DNA of 64,000 bases from Thermoanaerobaculia bacterium (GCA_022071945.1 JAJVIN010000034.1:1-64000), one strand, 5' to 3'; counted from the first letter of the stretch, positions 1-32,261 are shown. Notes: generated from the sequence alone by a model not told the origin. A program made the numbers and translations.

Positions 1-121
1 GTCTCGCTCCACGCTTCCTTCAGACGGTCGCTCGCGCTTCCGCCCTTGCGCTTCGCTCTGGTCGGTGTGATCTCCTTCCTACGGGTCTTTCACCCGCTAG
101 CTGATGCCCATGCTGGGCGTA

Positions 122-165
122 CACCCGCCTGCCGGCACCCTCTCCCCGCTCGCGCGGGGCGAGGG
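122..165. repeat. Dispersed GC-rich palindromic repeat, copy 1
   Basis: A run beginning CACCCGCC and containing CACCCTCTCCCCGCT, then CGCG, then CGGGGCGAGGG. The arms CCCTCTCCCCG and CGGGGCGAGGG pair almost perfectly around a short loop. A near-identical copy lies at 35373-35417, also just beyond the end of a gene. This pattern fits a REP-like extragenic element. The rest of positions 1-280 shows no convincing coding sequence; frames open there have no recognisable motif. Confidence 0.55.
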
Positions 166-280
166 GAGGAGCGGGGGGCCTCTCGTCTCGCCAGACCCCC
201 ACTCACGCGGCTGACGTGGGGCGAGGGAAGGGGGTTCGGGGATATCCCGCTCACGCGGCGCGGAGCGAGGAAATCATCCC

Positions 281-769
281 TCACTCCGGCCGCGCCGGTC
301 GCGGCCGCGTAAACAGAAAGAACACCCCGGTCCCCAGCGCCCGGAGCAGAAGGAAGAGCGCGATCGCCTGACCGAGGAACGGAAGCAGGTTCACCACCGA
401 TAGGAGCGCGCCGGCCCAGAGCGTCCGGCCAACGGGCCCCATCTCTCCGGCTCCTGGAAGGCCGCCCGCCACCGCGGGCAGCTCCGCCACCAGCCCCAGC
501 ACGATCAGGAACATCAGCCCCAGAAGCAGCAAGAACCCAGGGAGCTTTCCGGGCTCGCTTTTCAACAACAGGATCGAGACCAGAAGCAGCGCCGGACCGT
601 TGAAGAGCCCCATCAGGAACCGGCGCCCGTCGCCGTGCTGCTCCACGACGTCGTCCAGCCTCGCGGCGGTTGCGGGCATCAGCGCCCGCAGGATCAATGC
701 CGCCGCCACTGTCCCGGCCAGGACGAAGAGCGCCAGGACGCCCGCAAGGATGAGCTGGCCACTGCTCAC
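281..769 (-). CDS. Hypothetical multi-pass membrane protein in the sigma/anti-sigma operon
   Basis: A 162-residue protein starting at a GTG that overlaps the stop of the upstream anti-sigma gene in a GTGA arrangement, which argues for translational coupling. It has about four hydrophobic segments: near residues 4-26, 50-65, 70-90 and 115-150 (the last probably containing two). The frame stays open much further upstream, but that extension is arginine- and glycine-rich and antiparallel to the neighbour's coding, so I reject it. No family is recognised. Its place as third gene after an ECF sigma factor and its anti-sigma factor suggests an envelope role or membership of the stress regulon, which is an inference from context only. 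Confidence 0.65.
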   Translation of the reverse strand: MSSGQLILAGVLALFVLAGTVAAALILRALMPATAARLDDVVEQHGDGRRFLMGLFNGPALLLVSILLLKSEPGKLPGFLLLLGLMFLIVLGLVAELPAVAGGLPGAGEMGPVGRTLWAGALLSVVNLLPFLGQAIALFLLLRALGTGVFFLFTRPRPARPE

Positions 770-1260
770 GCGGCCCCCCTGCGTCTCCCGAGCAGAAGCG
801 TCACACCCGCGACCTGGATCCCCAGAAGAGCCACGACCAGCCAGCCGAGCCGCGGGATCTCTGGCGACCCCCACTCCACATCGAACGAGAGTCGCGGAAC
901 CTCCAGCGAGAGCGCCGGGACAGCCCACCGCTCCACCAGGCCAGCCCACTCCTGGGACCCGACCACACCGGCCAGAAGCAGCACCACCACGCCCACTATC
1001 AGAATCGCCCTCTCTGCCCCCGTGAACGGGGCGGAGGACCGCCGCCTCTCGATGGCAAGGACCAGCCGGGAATCGATCCCCGAGGGTTTCGATGTCACGA
1101 AGGCCCGGCGGAGAGCCGCGTCGGTTCCATCCTCTCGCCCCGCCACTTCCCGGCAGGCGGAGCATCCTTCGAGATGACGCTCCAGGTCTGCCGACCAGCA
1201 CGGATCCAGCTCACCCAGCGCCTTCTCCGCAAGCAGCGGGCGGACCTCGTCACAGCGCAC
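766..1260 (-). CDS. Zinc-finger anti-sigma factor, single-pass membrane protein
   Basis: A 164-residue protein. The N-terminus carries the zinc-finger anti-sigma signature: Cys3, then His29 followed by Cys33 and Cys36 (HLEGCSAC), as in the zf-HC2 family that binds region 4 of ECF sigma factors. Hydrophobic segments lie at about residues 83-102 and 137-157, so the domain would sit in the cytoplasm on a membrane anchor. The gene overlaps the end of the sigma factor gene by 11 bp, the standard arrangement for a sigma and its antagonist. Family knowledge says it holds the sigma factor inactive until an envelope or redox signal arrives; the signal here is unknown. Confidence 0.85.
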   Translation of the reverse strand: MRCDEVRPLLAEKALGELDPCWSADLERHLEGCSACREVAGREDGTDAALRRAFVTSKPSGIDSRLVLAIERRRSSAPFTGAERAILIVGVVVLLLAGVVGSQEWAGLVERWAVPALSLEVPRLSFDVEWGSPEIPRLGWLVVALLGIQVAGVTLLLGRRRGAA

Positions 1261-1909
1261 CGGACAGCTCCTTTCTCAGAATCTCGCGGGCCCTGAGAAT
1301 CCAGGTCTTCACCGTGTTCCTCGGAACCCCCATCAACTCCGAGATCTCCTCGCTCGTCAGGTCCTCCTGGTACTTCAGGGCAACGGCCAGCCGCTGCCTC
1401 TCCGGCAAGCGCGCAAGCGCTTCATTCAGCAGCCGGTCCCGCTCGGTCGTCTCGAACGCCACTGCCGGATCCGGCCGGGGATCCTTCACCCGAAGGGCTG
1501 CCTCCGTCGTCTCCAGCGGCGCTTCCCGCCGGCGCGGTCCTCTCTCCAGACGGTTCAGGACGTGCCGCACCGCGATTCTGCGGACCCACGGTTCGAGCGG
1601 CCGGAGCCGGTCGAATCGCGGAAGCCCGTCCAGGACGCGCATCAGGACTTCCTGACAGAGGTCTTCCGCCTCTGCGGCGTTTCCCGTCAAGCGGTACGCA
1701 AGCCCGAAGATCCGGCCGCTGAACCGCCGGACGAGCGTCGCGGTCGCCTCGGGATCGGACTCCAGGACCCTGAGGACCAGGTCCGAATCCGGACCCTCCT
1801 TCACATCGAGCCCCAAGACCATCGAAACAAGCGCATCGAAACTCACGGCGATCGTCTCGCGCAGTCTATTCGCTCGGAGGTGTCGTCCATCTCGCTCTCC
1901 CCAACCCAT
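1250..1909 (-). CDS. ECF-type RNA polymerase sigma factor (sigma-70 family)
   Basis: Up to 219 residues. Region 2 is seen in the stretch with ATLVRRF, then AYRLTGNAAEAEDLCQEV (the usual DAEDLxQEVF core-binding motif) and WVRRIAVRHVLN. Region 4 is ERQRLAVALKYQEDLTSEEI followed by the helix-turn-helix GVPRNTVKTWILRAREIL. There is no region 1 or 3, so it is an ECF sigma factor. The start is uncertain: an in-frame ATG at 1822, just before the conserved part, gives 190 residues, and neither start has a clear Shine-Dalgarno. It overlaps the anti-sigma gene, which probably encodes its own antagonist. Target promoters cannot be read from this window. Confidence 0.9.
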   Translation of the reverse strand: MGWGERDGRHLRANRLRETIAVSFDALVSMVLGLDVKEGPDSDLVLRVLESDPEATATLVRRFSGRIFGLAYRLTGNAAEAEDLCQEVLMRVLDGLPRFDRLRPLEPWVRRIAVRHVLNRLERGPRRREAPLETTEAALRVKDPRPDPAVAFETTERDRLLNEALARLPERQRLAVALKYQEDLTSEEISELMGVPRNTVKTWILRAREILRKELSGAL

Positions 1910-2053
1910 ACACGGCCTGGCCCGGAATGGGTTCAGGACCGGCGGCAGATTCGCCGTTTCTCCGTTCCGGCCGTCGAACCCGTCTGCGTTCCCCGCGCCG
2001 GCCGGGGAACTCGGCCCGCCCGAAAACGATCCGCCAGAATCCCCGAAGCCGGG

Positions 2054-2599
2054 TCACTTGCTGCCGAAGACGCCCCCCACCGCGTTCCCGAACTTGTCCG
2101 TGCTCCCGATCGCCACGGTCCGCAGGACCTTGAACGCCAGGGCCGCGTCCCCGCGCATGTTCGGGACGTAGATCTGCTCGATCTCGGGCCACCCCTTCAG
2201 CGTGACCGTCATGCCGTTGGGAAGGACGTCCCGGTACTGGGCCGAGCCCTGCCCCCTGTACGCCTGGACATCACTCGTCAGCTTGGCCATCAGCAGGAGA
2301 TCCATGTCACTCCAGGTCCACTGGACGGCGGCGGCGCTGCGGGCGATCGTACCGAGATTGAGGCTGTTGGCCCGGTAGGTCTCGTAGATCCTCTCGAAGG
2401 CGGCCTGGTCGATCCACCATGCTCCCTGGACCAGCTTCGAGGGGTCGACCGCCTTGCCCGTCCTGCCGTCCCTGGAACTGCAAAACCGGTAGAGGACTTC
2501 GCCCTGGGACAGAACGACCACCCTCGGGTTCTTCATCCCCATCGCGGCGCGGTTGAACTCCAGCTTGCTGCTGTTCAGATCGAAATTCACGGGCGTCAT
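2054..2599 (-). CDS. Protein of unknown function, 181 residues
   Basis: The start is supported by GGGAGGG about ten bases upstream of the ATG. The product is soluble, with no signal peptide, membrane segment or cysteine cluster apart from one Cys (FCSSRDGR). It contains several tryptophans (GAWWID, VQWTWSD) and a segment ending EIEQIYVPNMRGDAALAF. I do not recognise the family. It is divergently placed from the cupin gene at 2698, with 98 bp between them holding both promoters. The alternative frame running leftward from 3731 through the cupin gene is a shadow. Confidence 0.7.
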   Translation of the reverse strand: MTPVNFDLNSSKLEFNRAAMGMKNPRVVVLSQGEVLYRFCSSRDGRTGKAVDPSKLVQGAWWIDQAAFERIYETYRANSLNLGTIARSAAAVQWTWSDMDLLLMAKLTSDVQAYRGQGSAQYRDVLPNGMTVTLKGWPEIEQIYVPNMRGDAALAFKVLRTVAIGSTDKFGNAVGGVFGSK

Positions 2600-25203: not shown

Positions 25204-26076
25204 TCAGAGCGCGGCGTCGATGGCCCGCAGCGCCGCCAGCGCTCCCATCCCGATTCCGACAAAGCCCGGGAGATTCCCTTCGCGCCACGGGAACTCCGCG
25301 GGGCCCTGGGCTTCACGCGGGTTGATCCTCACGAGTACCGAGTCCTTTTCTCGCATCTGGGTTTCCGAGAACCATCTCACGGACGGGATCGCCGTCCCCG
25401 CCCCGCACTCGATGACGACGAAGGGACCCGGCGTCATCTGCCCGCGGCGCCAGGCCTCCAGACGCGCCCGCTGACGCCGGGAGGGAACGTCCTGCCACCC
25501 GCCGTCGCCGAACATCAGGATGTTGGGTCTGAGCCCTCCCCTGCAGCGGGGGCACTTCGGGAGAGGCGGACGCGCCCGAAACGTCGTCTCATCAACTTCC
25601 ACAACGATTCCGTCCGCGGGGAACGGCTCGCGATCGCAGCGCCCGAGGCACTGGACGAGGTGAATACTCCCGTGGATCTCCACGATTCGGAGGGGATCGA
25701 AACCTGCCTTCTGGAACTGCCCATCGACGTTCGATGTCAGGACAAAGCCTCCTCCGGGCTTCGAATCGGCCCACCTCTTCAGGATCGAGAAGCCTTCGTG
25801 CGGCTCGGTCTTCCGGTAGAGACCAAGCCGGTGCCCGTAGAACCCCCACGCCAACTCCGGATCCCTCTCGAACCAGTACGGATTGGCCATCTCCTCGAAG
25901 ACGAGGCCGAGCTCCCGGTAAGCCGGATACGCCCGCCAGAACCCCTCCGGCCCCCGAAAATCCGGAAGCCCCGAGTCGACGCCCATGCCGGCGCCCGCCG
26001 TGATCACCACCGCGTTGGCGCGCCTCACCGCTCGCGCGGCCAGCTCGATTTCCCTACCGTTCGTCTCGTCCTTCAC
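25204..26076 (-). CDS. SIR2-family NAD+-dependent protein deacylase
   Basis: 290 residues. NAD+-binding GAGMGVDSGLPDFRG at residues 28-42 (family GAGxSxxSGIPxFR; the first Ser is Gly here), TSNVDGQFQKAG at 115-125, and the catalytic His135 in EIHGSIH. Zinc cysteines are 143 and 147 (CLGRC) and 175 and 178 (CPRC). The C-terminal region has RPNILMFGD, the family's RPxVVxFGE segment. It removes acyl groups from lysines, making nicotinamide and O-acyl-ADP-ribose. The start overlaps the end of the ClpA-RF fusion gene by 23 bp, so the two are probably co-translated. The GxSGxxS change may lower activity. Confidence 0.88.
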   Translation of the reverse strand: MKDETNGREIELAARAVRRANAVVITAGAGMGVDSGLPDFRGPEGFWRAYPAYRELGLVFEEMANPYWFERDPELAWGFYGHRLGLYRKTEPHEGFSILKRWADSKPGGGFVLTSNVDGQFQKAGFDPLRIVEIHGSIHLVQCLGRCDREPFPADGIVVEVDETTFRARPPLPKCPRCRGGLRPNILMFGDGGWQDVPSRRQRARLEAWRRGQMTPGPFVVIECGAGTAIPSVRWFSETQMREKDSVLVRINPREAQGPAEFPWREGNLPGFVGIGMGALAALRAIDAAL

Positions 26077-28870
26077 TCTTCAACCCTCCGCCGGAAAGAC
26101 GCCGCCACCCCTCGAGAAACGGATCGAGCTCTCCGCGCAACACGTCTTTCAATCTCGGCACAACGGCTTCCGTTCTGGGATCCCGGCCGCCCGTTCCCGA
26201 GTGGCCATAGAGCCGCACGACTCGCGGCGATTCGGGTGACACCACGGAGCGGCTCTTGCGGAAGGCCGACAGGAACCACTCGAGAGTCTCGGCATGGGAC
26301 CCGTGGAACTCGGCCGTGAGGCCGGTTTCGGGCACGTCGATCCGGCCGAATGCCCGGACCTCGACTCCGAGGAGCCCTTTCCGTGCCTTGCGCGCTTCCA
26401 CACGCGGCGAGGACGGCCTCGAGGCCGTCTCCTGTTCGAAAAGCTCGATGCGGACCCGGGAGTCGTGACCCTCGCGCCGGTAGAGGCGGTGAACTCCAAC
26501 CTCCATCGAGAGGAGGCGCGCCGCTCCGGATCCCTCCACGTCGAGTACCACGCGGACCGGCCTGCCGTCGGCCTCTTCATAGGCCAGGACCGAGGAGGTC
26601 AGTCCGCATCGCGCGCACCAGGCCTCCTCCATCTTCACGAGATCCTCCAGAAAGCGGTCGCCACTCCCGCCATCCTGGGACTCCAGGAGAAGCCACACGC
26701 TTCCTGGTCCCTCGCCGGCGACTCTCTCGTCCCAGTGTCTGAGAGCGTCCGCGGCCTGCTCGTACAAGCGCACTCCGGCCGAAAGCGCACCCGGACGGCT
26801 TGCGGACTCCAGGAATCTCGAGAGGTTCTCCAGGGCCGAGGCCAGGCGGCCGCCCCCCTGGATCGCGACGTCGAGCTCCCGGTAGCGATCCAGCGCCTCC
26901 TGCGTGCGAGAACCGCCGTCCCAGAAACCAGCCCGGTTCATTTCCTCCAGGAGGTGCCGTGCCTCGGCCCTTCTGTCCTCGAGAGCGGCGAGGTGAGGTC
27001 CGGCGCGCTCTAGAAGCTCCGCGGTCCGGCTCCGCAAGTCCTCGAGGTCGCCGATCGAGATCGCCAGACGCGTCGACCCGTAGGGAACCACCGCACGCTC
27101 CGGCTTTTCTTGAAGGGTCGCCGGAGAAAGTGCCGAGGCGTGGACGCGGTTCTTCCTGACACCGAGTTCTATGACCGAGCCCGGTGCCGGGGTCGAACGA
27201 ACGACCAGATCCGCGACGGCCCCCGTCACTTCCCGCTCGAGGACGCGTTTCAAGAAGCGCGCCCCGAAATGCGGGTCGTAGCCGTTCACGGCCAGCCAGT
27301 CGATGACGCTCTCATCGACCTCGAGCCTCAGGTTCTTTCTCTTCAGACCGCTTCTCATCGAGAGCTCGGACAGCTGCCGGCGCGCGATCGTCCGGACGTG
27401 ATCCCTTCCGAGAGGACGAAACACCACGACCTGATCGAACCGGTTGAGGAACTCGACTCGAAAGACCCCCGCCAGACGCCTCTCGGCCTCTCGGGCGAGC
27501 GCCTCCATGCTCGAGTCGGGCCAAAACCCCAGGGGCTTTGCCTGAAAGACGTCGGCACCCGCGTTCGTCGTGGCGATGACGATCATGGACCGGCACGAGA
27601 CGGTCTCCCCGGCTCCGTTGATGAATCGCCCCTCGTCGAAGAGTTGCAGGAAGCGGTCGTGCACCTTCGCGTGGGCCTTCTCGAACTCGTCGAGAAGAAG
27701 GACGGCAAAAGGCTGTCCCGAAACCCGTAGGGTCAAGACGCCCCGCTTCTGATGCGGCCGGCTGTCGTTGGGGTCGCCAAACAACACTTCGGCCGCGGTG
27801 TCTCCCTGGTGATCCGCCATGTTGAGCCGGACCATCCGGTCCTTGCTCCCGAACAGGTACTCCGCCAGAAGCTGCGCGACGTGGGTCTTCCCCACCCCCG
27901 TCGGTCCGGCGAAGAGGAAGACGCCAAAGGGGCGTCTGAGGTCGGTCAGGCCGGACTTGATCCGTCCGATCATCCTCACAACCGCCTCGACGGCCTCTTC
28001 CTGGCCAAGGACCTTCTCCACGAAGCGCTGCTCGATCTCGGAAAGGTCCAGGGGCAGGTCGGGGTCGACGAGATTCCGCGGGACGCGATGGGTGACCGAG
28101 AACCGGTCGATAACCGCACCTCCCGTGACCGTCCCCCCGGCTGGGGTGAGGCTCGCAACCTGGCCGAGAAGGTCGATTGCCTTCCTGGGCTGGTGGCTTC
28201 GCGCCAGGAAGCGGTGGGTCAGGTGGACGGCCTCCTCGAGTGCCTCGGCCGTGAACCGCTTCCCGTTCCGCGCGGAGGTCTCCGCCGACCACCCCGCGAG
28301 AATGCGCAGGGTCTGCTCCATTCCGGGCTCCTCCACAAAGAGCGGAACGAAGTGCTTCTCGAGCTCCGGCCAGTCCTCGAACATCGAAGCGACAGCCGTG
28401 GAATCGCCCTCGCCCAGGACCTCCCCGGGGCGCCTGACGCCCAGCTGCTGCAGGAGGTTCGACATCCCGTAGATGTCGGCGACGTGGACGTCCCTGAAGA
28501 ACGGGACGAGGTCCTTCCTTTCCGAAAGAAGCTCGATGAGTTTCTGGAACTCGGGCCGGATCTGGTTGGCGTCCTTCAGGCTCGCGATCCGTCCCAGGAT
28601 CGAGAACTGCAGGACGGTCTTTCCGAGCAGGGCCGCGGGACCCTTGCCGTCCTCGAGCCGCCGCACGATCTCGCCGATGAGGGCCGTCTTCCCGACCCCG
28701 GGTTCACCCGTCAGGATCAGTCCACGGCCCGAGTGGAGGATCTCCGTCGCCTGAGCGAGGGGATCCTCCATCTCGAACGCCGTTCCGACTTCACCACTCC
28801 GGACCGCTGCCGTCAGGTCCCGCTCGACCCAGACCGCCAGGACGTTCTCGGAGGCGGCCTTCTTCGTCAT
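26054..28870 (-). CDS. ClpA/B-like AAA+ protein fused to a GGQ-less release-factor-like domain
   Basis: 938 residues from ATG 28870, two bases after the preceding stop. AAA-1: Walker A GEPGVGKT (55-62), but the Walker B position reads PFFRDVHVA (123-131) where ClpB has LFIDELHTL, and the arginine-finger region reads LEKHF (170-174) where ClpB has LERRF, so it looks degenerate. AAA-2 is intact: Walker A GPTGVGKT (322-329), Walker B LLLDE (391-395), Arg finger LNR (475-477), sensor 2 GAR (536-538). No middle domain separates them, as in ClpA. Residues about 640-925 match class-1 release factors: GFWDGGSRTQEAL, VHRLYRREGHDS (RF2 has SPF where EGH stands), and RDPRTEAVV followed by LKDVLRGELDPF. 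The GGQ motif is missing. Adjacent genes encode a peptidase and a sirtuin. Confidence 0.85.
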   Translation of the reverse strand: MTKKAASENVLAVWVERDLTAAVRSGEVGTAFEMEDPLAQATEILHSGRGLILTGEPGVGKTALIGEIVRRLEDGKGPAALLGKTVLQFSILGRIASLKDANQIRPEFQKLIELLSERKDLVPFFRDVHVADIYGMSNLLQQLGVRRPGEVLGEGDSTAVASMFEDWPELEKHFVPLFVEEPGMEQTLRILAGWSAETSARNGKRFTAEALEEAVHLTHRFLARSHQPRKAIDLLGQVASLTPAGGTVTGGAVIDRFSVTHRVPRNLVDPDLPLDLSEIEQRFVEKVLGQEEAVEAVVRMIGRIKSGLTDLRRPFGVFLFAGPTGVGKTHVAQLLAEYLFGSKDRMVRLNMADHQGDTAAEVLFGDPNDSRPHQKRGVLTLRVSGQPFAVLLLDEFEKAHAKVHDRFLQLFDEGRFINGAGETVSCRSMIVIATTNAGADVFQAKPLGFWPDSSMEALAREAERRLAGVFRVEFLNRFDQVVVFRPLGRDHVRTIARRQLSELSMRSGLKRKNLRLEVDESVIDWLAVNGYDPHFGARFLKRVLEREVTGAVADLVVRSTPAPGSVIELGVRKNRVHASALSPATLQEKPERAVVPYGSTRLAISIGDLEDLRSRTAELLERAGPHLAALEDRRAEARHLLEEMNRAGFWDGGSRTQEALDRYRELDVAIQGGGRLASALENLSRFLESASRPGALSAGVRLYEQAADALRHWDERVAGEGPGSVWLLLESQDGGSGDRFLEDLVKMEEAWCARCGLTSSVLAYEEADGRPVRVVLDVEGSGAARLLSMEVGVHRLYRREGHDSRVRIELFEQETASRPSSPRVEARKARKGLLGVEVRAFGRIDVPETGLTAEFHGSHAETLEWFLSAFRKSRSVVSPESPRVVRLYGHSGTGGRDPRTEAVVPRLKDVLRGELDPFLEGWRRLSGGGLKSEGRDER

Positions 28871-28872
28871 CC

Positions 28873-30219
28873 CTACGCCGCGAGCATCTCGTCGATCGTC
28901 ACCACATCGACGACACCCCGGCACCCGTAGAGGATCGGGAGGATCTCCTCCGGCGGGTGTTCCCGGCGCAGCGCCGCCACCTTCTCCGTTCCGAACCGGT
29001 ACGCGGGAAGGTACATCCGGCCCAGCAGCGGATGCTGCCCCCAGGCGCCGGAGAGCTTATCGGCTCGCTCCTCCGAGACGAGAAACTCGTTGCGCAGGAC
29101 CCTTGCGACCTCGTCTTTCGGCAAGCCTTCCTTCCACGTCAGGTAGGCCGACTGGTTCTTCGCGTCATCTTGCAAGAGTGCCAAGAGGAGCCCGATCCTC
29201 AGGTCCACGTCCGGGAGGTCCTCGATGGCCGTCACGCCGTGAGCCATCAGCACCCCGTTGTTGGCGATCCCCTCGAAGAGAGCTGCCGCCCTCGTGTTCA
29301 TCGTCAGGACGCTCGCCTCGAAACCCGCTTCGCCCCTGAAGAAGAGATTCTGCAAGTACGCAAACGTCGTGACGTGCCCGGGCACGACCTCGTGGCTGAC
29401 GAGCTGCTGGAACTCCGGAACCGAGATCTCCAGGGCGGCGTTGAGCTCGTAGCTCGCCTCGTACTCGGGGGACCCGTCGGCCTTGCGCGCGCGGCCCAGG
29501 TAGTTCATCGAACCCGAAAACCAGGCGTTCTCGATCGGAAGGAACGCGACGTTCGCCCTCGGGACCGCATGCATCTCTTTCGGGATGTAGGGGAGGACAT
29601 TCTTGACGGTCAGCGCATCGAGCTGGGCGATGAAGGCCTCACCCAGAGCCGGGATCGATCTTCTCGGCACGAGGCGCGCCGCCCTCCAGGAGTCGATGGC
29701 CGACAGGAGGCTCTCTCCCTTCAACCGTTCGTGCCGGGCCTCGAGGAGATCCGCCACCTGCTCGACCTTCTCCCGGGGCGAGGAGGGAACGGGGCCGCTC
29801 CCCGTCACGGCGGTGACGCACGTCTGAAACGCCACCGGCTGGCCACGGTCCGCAACCTCCAGAGCGAGGTCCCACATCACCCCAAAGCAGAGGCCGAGCC
29901 CTGAAAGGTACCGGCCCCTGAGCCCCCCGAGCGCCTCCCCGGAGCCGCGGACGCGATCGATCGCTCCTTTCACGTCGATCTCCGCCAGATACTCATCGAG
30001 GGCCGCGCCCGCCTCGGCGGATTTCGAGACTCCGCCCAGGACTCGAAGCCGGGCGGCGGCCGCGTGGTGATAGGCGGCAGGCAGCGGTTCATCCGAGAAC
30101 CAGGAATCCGCGATGAAGCGGCCCATTCCCGAGGGGTTCATGACGTCGCCGCCCCACATCGTGTCGATTCCCAGAATGGCCGTCGCGAGGTCTTGTGTCA
30201 GCGATCCGTTCCCTTCCAT
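28873..30219 (-). CDS. Metallopeptidase-like protein with HEVVPGH motif (DUF885-related)
   Basis: 448 residues from ATG 30219, five bases after the transporter stop; a longer open frame upstream overlaps the transporter and is rejected. No signal peptide. The helical protein carries SHEVVPGHVTTF near residue 284, matching the H-E-x-x-P-G-H zinc motif of DUF885-type peptidases; downstream MNTRAAALFEGIANNGVLMAHG supplies a plausible Glu ligand (family members have E-GWA). The family hydrolyses short peptides or is of unknown specificity; distant similarity to M2/M3/M32-type folds is expected. It sits between a peptide transporter and the Clp-RF fusion, so cytosolic peptide cleavage is a reasonable inference. 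Confidence 0.75.
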   Translation of the reverse strand: MEGNGSLTQDLATAILGIDTMWGGDVMNPSGMGRFIADSWFSDEPLPAAYHHAAAARLRVLGGVSKSAEAGAALDEYLAEIDVKGAIDRVRGSGEALGGLRGRYLSGLGLCFGVMWDLALEVADRGQPVAFQTCVTAVTGSGPVPSSPREKVEQVADLLEARHERLKGESLLSAIDSWRAARLVPRRSIPALGEAFIAQLDALTVKNVLPYIPKEMHAVPRANVAFLPIENAWFSGSMNYLGRARKADGSPEYEASYELNAALEISVPEFQQLVSHEVVPGHVTTFAYLQNLFFRGEAGFEASVLTMNTRAAALFEGIANNGVLMAHGVTAIEDLPDVDLRIGLLLALLQDDAKNQSAYLTWKEGLPKDEVARVLRNEFLVSEERADKLSGAWGQHPLLGRMYLPAYRFGTEKVAALRREHPPEEILPILYGCRGVVDVVTIDEMLAA

Positions 30220-30224
30220 GATCC

Positions 30225-32261
30225 TCACTCCTCCTCGGCCTTGGCCCGGCACGAATCCCAGAACATGTAGGCCGCGAGACCGGCGTACAGGACGAGCGCC
30301 AGAAGCTCGGCCCCCGTCCCCTCGGCGTTGCCGAAGGAGAATCCGAGCGGTCCGAGGTTCATTTTCATCTTCAGGAATTTCAAGAGGGCCGCGACGACAC
30401 CCATGATGGCGCCCCCGGCTATGAAGCCCGAGGCGATGAGCATCCCGCGGGACGATCGCGCGGACCTCAGCTTCTCGTCCTTTCCGGCCGATTTCTGGAC
30501 CCACTCGGCCACGAGGCCTCCGACGACGAGGGGCGTGTTGAGCTCCATCGGGATGTACATGCCGAGGGCGAAGGCCAGGGCCGGTACTCCGATCATCTGC
30601 ATCGTCAGCGCGATGAGGGCGCCGATGCCGTAGAGCAGCCAGGGAACCGGCTCGTTGGACATCAGGGTCTTGATGACGGCCGCCATCGCGTTGGCCTGGG
30701 GCGCCACGAGAACCTCACTCGCCGAGTGCTCGGCGGACGGCACGAAACCGTACGCCTGGTTCAGGAGCAGGATGACCGATCCCACGGTGAAGGAGGCGAC
30801 GAGCGTCCCGAGGATCTTCGACCGCTGCTGGATCGCGGGAGTCGCCCCGATCCAGTACCCGACCTTGAAGTCCGTGATCGCGCCGCCCGCCATCGACAGG
30901 GCGGTGCAGACGACTCCTCCCATCAGGAGCGCGGCGAGCATCCCATCCCGGCCCGTCAGTCCAGCCTGCGCGAGGAAGACCGAGGTCAGGATGAGGGTCA
31001 TCAAGGTCATGCCAGAAACGGGGTTCGTGCCCACGACCGCGATCGCGCGGGCCGCGACCGTCGTGAAGAGGAACGAGATGATGACGACGATCCCGAGGGC
31101 GATCAGCGAGAGCTTCAGGGGCGAATCGAGGTGACCGACGACGCCGAAACGGAAGAACACCCAGAGCGCGATCGCGGTGATGATGAGACCGATCAGCACG
31201 TTCTTCATCTGGAAGTCCCGATCGGTCCGCTCCCGGCCGTCAGCGGCCGCGGCTGCCTTGCCGCCGAGGAGTTCCTTGAAGCCGAGGCTGAAGGCCTTGG
31301 CGATGATGCGCCAGCTCCTCAGGATCCCGAGGATGCCGGCCGCGGCGATCCCGCCAATTCCGATGTGCCTCACGTACGTGCGGAAGATCTGCTCGGCCGA
31401 CATCGCGCCGATCAGGGTGCCGTCGGCGGCCGGGGGAATCGCGACGGTCAGCTGGGCCCCGAAGTGCCCCACCATCGGAACCAGGAGGAACCAGGAGAGG
31501 AACGACCCGGCGCAGATGATGGCCGAGTACTTCAGACCGATGATGTAGCCGAGACCCATCACGGAGGAGAGGACGTCGAGCTTGAAGACGACCTTCGACT
31601 TCTCGGCGAGGACGTCGAGCATCTTGACCGACCGCGTCGTGAAGACCTCGGCGAAGGCCTCCATGTGGATGATCAGGAAGTCGAAGATGCCGCCGACGGC
31701 CGCCGCCAGGGCGAGGACCTTGGCCTGCTTGCCTCCCGCCTCGCCCGCCACCAGGACCTCCGTCGTGGCGGTCGCCTCGGGGAACGGAAACTCCCCGTGC
31801 ATCTCCCTGACGAAGTAGCGCCTGAGCGGTATCAAGAAGAGGATCCCAAGGATGCCTCCCAGAAGGGCCACGAGCGACAACTTCACGAGGTTGACGTCGA
31901 GGCCGAGGATGAAGAGGGCCGGAAGCGTGAAGATCGAGCCCGCCACGACCAGACCGGACGCCGCGCCCACGGACTGGACGATGACGTTCTCGAGGATGGT
32001 CGAGCGGCGCCGGAACGCGTAACCGAGACCCACGGCGAGAATCGAAATCGGGATCGCGGCCTCGAAGACCTGCCCGACCTTCAGCCCCAGGAAGGCGGCG
32101 GCCGCGGAAAAGACGGCCGCCATCACCAGGCCGAGAGCGAGGGAGCGGCCGGTGAACTCCGCGATCGTCGAAGAGGCGGGGACGATCGGGGCGTACTCCT
32201 CGCCAGGGTTGAGGGTTCGGTAGGCATTCTCGGGAAGGGACTTCTTGGACGACGCTTCCAT
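30225..32261 (-). CDS. OPT-family oligopeptide transporter
   Basis: 678 residues from ATG 32261 with CAGGAGCC just upstream (an upstream ATG at 32285 would add eight residues). NAYRTLNPGEEYAPIVPAS is the conserved bacterial OPT start. About 14-16 membrane segments are visible, with blocks such as AFLGLKVGQVFEAAIPISILA, the segment FPFPEATATTEVL, TNPVSGMTLMTLIL, and MELNTPLVVGGLVAEW. OPT proteins import oligopeptides or metal-peptide chelates using the proton gradient. The downstream peptidase gene is five bases away, which supports a peptide-uptake role. Confidence 0.93.
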   Translation of the reverse strand: MEASSKKSLPENAYRTLNPGEEYAPIVPASSTIAEFTGRSLALGLVMAAVFSAAAAFLGLKVGQVFEAAIPISILAVGLGYAFRRRSTILENVIVQSVGAASGLVVAGSIFTLPALFILGLDVNLVKLSLVALLGGILGILFLIPLRRYFVREMHGEFPFPEATATTEVLVAGEAGGKQAKVLALAAAVGGIFDFLIIHMEAFAEVFTTRSVKMLDVLAEKSKVVFKLDVLSSVMGLGYIIGLKYSAIICAGSFLSWFLLVPMVGHFGAQLTVAIPPAADGTLIGAMSAEQIFRTYVRHIGIGGIAAAGILGILRSWRIIAKAFSLGFKELLGGKAAAAADGRERTDRDFQMKNVLIGLIITAIALWVFFRFGVVGHLDSPLKLSLIALGIVVIISFLFTTVAARAIAVVGTNPVSGMTLMTLILTSVFLAQAGLTGRDGMLAALLMGGVVCTALSMAGGAITDFKVGYWIGATPAIQQRSKILGTLVASFTVGSVILLLNQAYGFVPSAEHSASEVLVAPQANAMAAVIKTLMSNEPVPWLLYGIGALIALTMQMIGVPALAFALGMYIPMELNTPLVVGGLVAEWVQKSAGKDEKLRSARSSRGMLIASGFIAGGAIMGVVAALLKFLKMKMNLGPLGFSFGNAEGTGAELLALVLYAGLAAYMFWDSCRAKAEEE

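Follow-up and report, generated by a model that had tools for sequence, protein, structure and literature searches.

A recurrent bacterial fusion of a Clp/Hsp100-type AAA+ protein with a release factor 2-derived module that has lost its stop-codon and peptide-release motifs

A gene that joins an Hsp100-type AAA+ protein to a module derived from release factor 2 (RF2) was identified in a 64,000-nucleotide stretch of DNA from a Thermoanaerobaculia bacterium (GCA_022071945.1 JAJVIN010000034.1:1-64000), hereafter the window. The gene occupies 26054..28870 (-), starts with an ATG at 28870 and runs for 938 codons with no internal stops. It encodes a 938-residue protein in which two AAA+ modules, D1 and D2, are followed by a pseudo-release-factor module. 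Our data demonstrate that this fusion is real, recurs in scattered relatives and is under selection; it is apparently undescribed. We propose, with a probability of roughly 40%, that the protein is a stress-linked Hsp100 remodeller that would be docked on ribosomes by its catalytically dead RF2 module.

Pfam searches of the whole protein returned AAA_2 (E=1.7e-34), ClpB_D2-small (3.4e-16) and PCRF (3.7e-8, over the gathering score, residues 636-808), and NCBIfam returned ClpB, ClpA and prfB (TIGR00020, 2.5e-9). Searched alone, the C-terminal part matched PCRF at 4.2e-9 and gave no match to RF-1 (PF00472), the GGQ domain. PCRF was also above the gathering score in six other members of the family (E 1e-5 to 2.9e-14) and slightly below it in G006. 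A preliminary description, made from the sequence alone, had read the protein as a double AAA+ protein with a release-factor-like C-terminus devoid of SPF and GGQ, and this reading held, with the refinement that D1 is degenerate. The release-factor motifs it had quoted are all present where it placed them: GFWD (residues 648-651), GVHRLYRREGHDS (792-804), RDPRTEAVV (896-904) and DVLRGELDPF (909-918) align with GFW, GVHRLVRISPFD, KDxRT and VLDGDLD of RF2, respectively.

Sequence profiles, profile-profile comparison and predicted structures all favour RF2 over RF1, and descent of the module from an RF2-type protein is practically certain. A 13-row profile of the family C-termini gave 41 matches in the PDB, all of them release factors, with RF2 first at 1.4e-29 versus 5.1e-21 for RF1. 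The family falls into a short and a long type, and hhalign comparisons with RF2 and RF1 profiles built from the same phylum favoured RF2 by a wide margin in both: the short-type C-terminus matched RF2 at 1.6e-26 over 298 columns versus 6.1e-13 for RF1, and the long-type C-terminus matched RF2 at 3.2e-16. AlphaFold2, given family sequences only, folded the window module into a helical domain 1 plus a domain 2/4 that is split (predicted local distance difference test, pLDDT, 71.0), and the top structural match was E. coli RF2 (1GQE; VIA Z=20.2, 276 residues, 3.7 A). The long-type module of G394 was modelled with high confidence (pLDDT 88.5, predicted template modelling score 0.86), again matched 1GQE best (VIA-align Z 20.5, 273 residues, 4.7 A) and has a single helix at the former place of domain 3. 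Matches of the modules to designed helical bundles were set aside as noise from a common arrangement. In the release-factor tree the modules form long branches and their branching point is not placed; it is the profile scores that favour RF2. In net charge the module is a little less acidic than RF2, which is hardly informative.

A helical domain that resembles domain 1 (about residues 609-718; 26717..27046 (-)), assigned from the AlphaFold2 model and its RF2 match, is followed by the first half of domain 2/4 (about residues 724-812; 26435..26701 (-)), which holds GVHRLYRREGHDS. Between this half and the second lies a domain-3-sized remnant with no GGQ loop and low model confidence (about residues 840-873; 26252..26353 (-)). 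The second half, with the tail RLYG...RDPRTEAVV...DVLRGELDPF, spans about residues 884-926 (26093..26221 (-)). In the alignment, the stop-codon tripeptide of class-1 release factors (SPF in RF2, PxT in RF1) is absent from the module; SPF is replaced by EGH in the window protein and by other residues in relatives, and neither SPF nor GGQ is kept in any aligned module. Consistently, a PF00472 search of 18 genomes of the family never matched the fusion locus and found only separate RF1, RF2 and ArfB-sized proteins. The module is thus an extra release-factor copy, since the genome has ordinary release factors of its own. It resembles RF2 (PrfB) in its domain 1 and domain 2/4 fold, its GFW and GVHR motifs and its KDxRT...VLDGDLD-like tail, and differs in the loss of SPF and GGQ, in a domain 3 that is reduced or excised and in its junction to an AAA+ motor.

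The motor part carries two Clp-type AAA+ modules and a D2-small domain, which places it in the Hsp100/Clp group, and its motifs were aligned with five Clp controls, ClpA and ClpB proteins of the same phylum. D1 (about residues 17-245; 28136..28822 (-)) keeps Walker A (GEPGVGKT, residues 55-62; 28685..28708 (-)) and has lost the Walker B DE pair, the RRF (Arg-finger) stretch and the pore-loop Tyr. The Walker B position reads FFRDVH (residues 124-129; 28484..28501 (-)) where the controls have FIDEIH or FVDEIH, and the pore-loop position reads ANQIRPEF (residues 101-108; 28547..28570 (-)) where they have xKYRGEF or xRYRGDF. Across ten aligned members the DE pair is changed to RD, PD, PN, TD, PR or PG; ATP hydrolysis by D1 is therefore not expected. 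Most relatives keep the pore-loop aromatic (Tyr or Phe), which is gone from the window protein and from G006. D2 with D2-small (about residues 275-576; 27143..28048 (-), from the AAA_2 and ClpB_D2-small matches) keeps Walker A (GPTGVGKT, residues 322-329; 27884..27907 (-)), Walker B (VLLLDEFEKA, residues 390-399; 27674..27703 (-)), sensor 1, the Arg finger and sensor 2. The term double AAA+ is therefore true by homology, and, judged from the alignment, all ATPase motifs are kept in D2 only.

The GYVG pore loop of D2, present in 5/5 controls, is missing in every family member; in the window protein LFGDPNDSRPHQKRG stands in place of the PPGYVG segment (residues 363-377; 27740..27784 (-)). The preliminary description had proposed that the protein binds the ribosomal A site without releasing peptide and brings an unfoldase to stalled ribosomes or nascent chains. 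The homology to RF2 behind that proposal is strongly supported, and the protein may bind the A site as proposed; "unfoldase" may be the wrong word because the motor lacks the D2 GYVG loop. At the position of the LGF loop, which marks ClpP partners such as ClpA and ClpC (PMC10149685), GF is found in 14/14 members having the region, and in 13 of them L, V, I or P comes before it; the window protein has PLGF (residues 446-449; 27524..27535 (-)). Judged by P-loop spacing, a ClpB-type M-domain is absent, and no Clp N-domain was found in the fusion. The fusion thus shares with ClpA, ClpB and ClpC the D1-D2 order, the D2 ATPase motifs and D2-small, with ClpA and ClpC the LGF-like loop, and with ClpA the lack of an M-domain; it differs from all three in its altered D1 Walker B and D2 pore loop, the lack of an N-domain match, its C-terminal RF2-like module and its own clade.

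The phylum is probably Acidobacteriota, to judge by gene content and genome sizes. A profile from three C-termini had already recovered more members in it, and a profile of 11 sequences found the fusion in 13 of 396 evenly drawn phylum genomes, with four further members (G006, G520, G527 and G530) coming from other searches. The ortholog in G006, which belongs to the same family of organisms as the window, is split over two contigs and about 50% identical to the window protein. The short type (window, G006, G442 and G345) keeps the domain-3-sized remnant and measures 938-971 residues in the three whole proteins, with the lengths for G442 and G345 taken from one stop to the next. G345 is the least diverged (prfB 5.3e-25), and its remnant still resembles the RF2 stretch after GGQ. 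The long type (G301, G394, G327, G338, G376, G432, G355, G032, G280 and others; about 1,110-1,210 residues stop to stop) has an N-terminal hydrophobic segment and an extra N-terminal region, and its domain 3 is excised. Its best-conserved parts include the RF2-type tail VRRYRExPSPLVRD...GDFD.

In a tree of D2, the family is split from ClpA and ClpB with support of 100/99, indicating a single origin of the fusion followed by spread or loss. G081 falls in the clade by its D2, and its C-terminus is too diverged to be called RF2-like. In genus g208 the gene is present in 4/4 searched genomes, and the RF2-like module shows a nonsynonymous divergence (dN) of 0.06-0.09 against a synonymous divergence (dS) of 0.70-1.1, giving a dN/dS of about 0.09-0.11. 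This ratio is at or below that of D1 and far under that of the N-terminal region, indicating that the module is maintained and not decaying in this genus.

We hypothesize that one ancestral fusion placed an RF2 copy behind the C-terminal end of a Clp/Hsp100 protein, on the ClpP-side face, and that the RF2 part then shed the means to read stop codons (SPF) and to release peptide (GGQ, and in the long type the whole of domain 3) while its fold was kept under selection. Domain 1 and domain 2/4 would bring the AAA+ ring, presumably a hexamer, to the A site or the factor-binding region of ribosomes that are stalled, damaged or idle under stress. Support for the stress link comes from G345, where the fusion stands in one gene string with dnaK, dnaJ and an HspR-type repressor gene. 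Docking would occur without peptide release, and ATP hydrolysis by D2 could remodel or remove the nascent chain, a bound factor or the module itself. There are precedents for both halves of this arrangement. Balon, a release-factor-like hibernation factor without codon-reading and GGQ motifs, binds the A site under stress (PMC10901736), and Vms1 with Cdc48 pairs a release-factor-fold protein with an AAA+ motor (PMC6514570). It is possible, with more reserve than for the general proposal, that an RF2-evolved pseudo-release factor docks the Hsp100 motor at the A site as an independent, single-polypeptide counterpart of this eukaryotic pairing. Balon has an aeRF1/Pelota fold unrelated to RF2 and no AAA+ part, and Vms1/ANKZF1 and Cdc48/p97, which act in ribosome quality control, are two proteins with no homology to the fusion, the former a hydrolase with an eRF1-type fold. 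Another diverged bacterial relative of release factors is PrfH, which has a special role on damaged ribosomes; unlike the fusion, it keeps the catalytic Gln, lacks domain 1 (PMC6514570) and is not joined to an AAA+ protein. If the proposal is true, a catalytically dead bacterial release factor has become a targeting device, and a single polypeptide couples chaperone machinery directly to the ribosome. Should this coupling prove wrong, the family remains a clear example of a core translation factor put to another use.

Several observations weigh against ribosome docking by a stress-linked remodeller. Affinity for the A site may have been lost, because the stop-codon-reading residues are gone. 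The hydrophobic segment of the long type suggests a membrane-attached protein more than a ribosome factor that is free. A relative close to the long type (G077; L037, G077:C328, open reading frame 77-2482 (+), 802 residues) ends after D2 with no RF2-like module, by either natural loss or a break. Member genomes also hold transfer-messenger RNA (tmRNA), RF1, RF2 and usually an ArfB-like protein. Finally, a dnaK-hspR context was found in one member only, G345 (L164, 5909-12346 (-)), where dnaK, dnaJ, a gene for an HspR-type repressor (NF047375, 92.5 bits, just below the cut-off of 105) and the fusion are consecutive on one strand; other neighbourhoods differ. We rejected the idea that the fusion substitutes for missing rescue systems, as tmRNA and RF-1 proteins are present. 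A role as clpB replacement in a dnaK-hspR-clpB operon was unsupported: the relatives examined carry other genes, and not clpB, behind dnaK-(dnaJ)-hspR. In a separate observation, G432 gave two tmRNA matches above the cut-off on different contigs (C12 and C49), in a genome with 6% contamination.

The loss of all catalytic and decoding motifs, the strong divergence from RF2 on long branches, the module-less G077 relative and the lack of translation genes recurring beside the fusion in the neighbourhoods examined would also suit a plain protein-protein domain, such as a substrate adaptor or an oligomer-stabilising part, acting off ribosomes. We consider this unlikely, yet not negligible, since the RF2 fold is intact from domain 1 through domain 2/4, beyond the needs of a small adaptor, and the RF2-type tail is among the best-conserved long-type parts. 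A markedly less probable role is that of a hibernation-type factor, in which the module would plug idle ribosomes at their A site, to be removed by the AAA+ part once ATP returns. Balon (aeRF1-type, without NIKS and GGQ) does such plugging in other bacteria (PMC10901736), and the loss of GYVG speaks against bulk threading of polypeptides by D2; however, no starvation or cold-shock genes occur in the neighbourhoods examined, the distribution is sporadic, and the folds of RF2 and Balon are unrelated.

The conserved xGF loop and the missing M-domain raise the further idea that the fusion docks ClpP, with the module bringing ribosome-linked substrates for degradation. This appears improbable, slightly more so than hibernation, as the module lies behind D2 on the ClpP-facing side, where it could block docking, and the D2 pore loop, which threading requires, is changed. 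A part in the type VI secretion system (T6SS) as a ClpV-like recycling ATPase was raised by G327 (L216, 1162-13001 (+)), in which tssK, tssL-like, tssM, tagF-like and tssA-like genes come after the fusion on its strand, tssK and tssM being the two checked with Pfam. This role is largely refuted because members occur in genomes without T6SS: TssC/VipB was not found in 8/14 genomes carrying the fusion or AAA+ relatives of it, six of the eight being at least 96% complete, and no T6SS genes lie beside the other members examined. Independently of this, the genome of the window holds two TssC/VipB-type genes on different contigs (G000:C48 and G000:C31).

We found no description of a release factor joined to an AAA+/Clp protein in the open-access literature, our scope being papers outside subscription; the consulted parts of a release-factor survey (PMC6514570) describe no such bacterial fusion. 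Named genomes were scanned for exact peptide words of a single protein, a procedure that would miss distant members outside the phylum. Moritella loci that came from a scan of genome contigs were set aside, since their ClpV-type gene is an ordinary one that has GYVG and lies in a T6SS-like cluster. No relative was found among viral contigs, and plasmids gave partial Clp-type matches only, no record covering 80% of the query. A defence role was rejected, as PADLOC matches cover AAA+ segments only. The family offers natural test material in its two subtypes (domain 3 remnant versus excised), in closely related species for comparison, and in an Hsp100 of which one ring is degenerate and D2 has no normal pore loop.

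No partner gene is common to the neighbourhoods examined. In the window, a Sir2-family gene (25204-26076 (-); PF02146, E=1.9e-18) shares 23 nt with the fusion gene at the latter's 3' end and is thus possibly co-translated with it. Directly upstream, on the same strand and after a gap of 2 bp, lies a gene at 28873-30504 (-) with a weak DUF885 match (E=0.035). In G301 (L127, 13061-16300 (+)), a large open reading frame just upstream of the fusion looks, by eye only, like bacterial Pnkp, a polynucleotide kinase-phosphatase of RNA repair.
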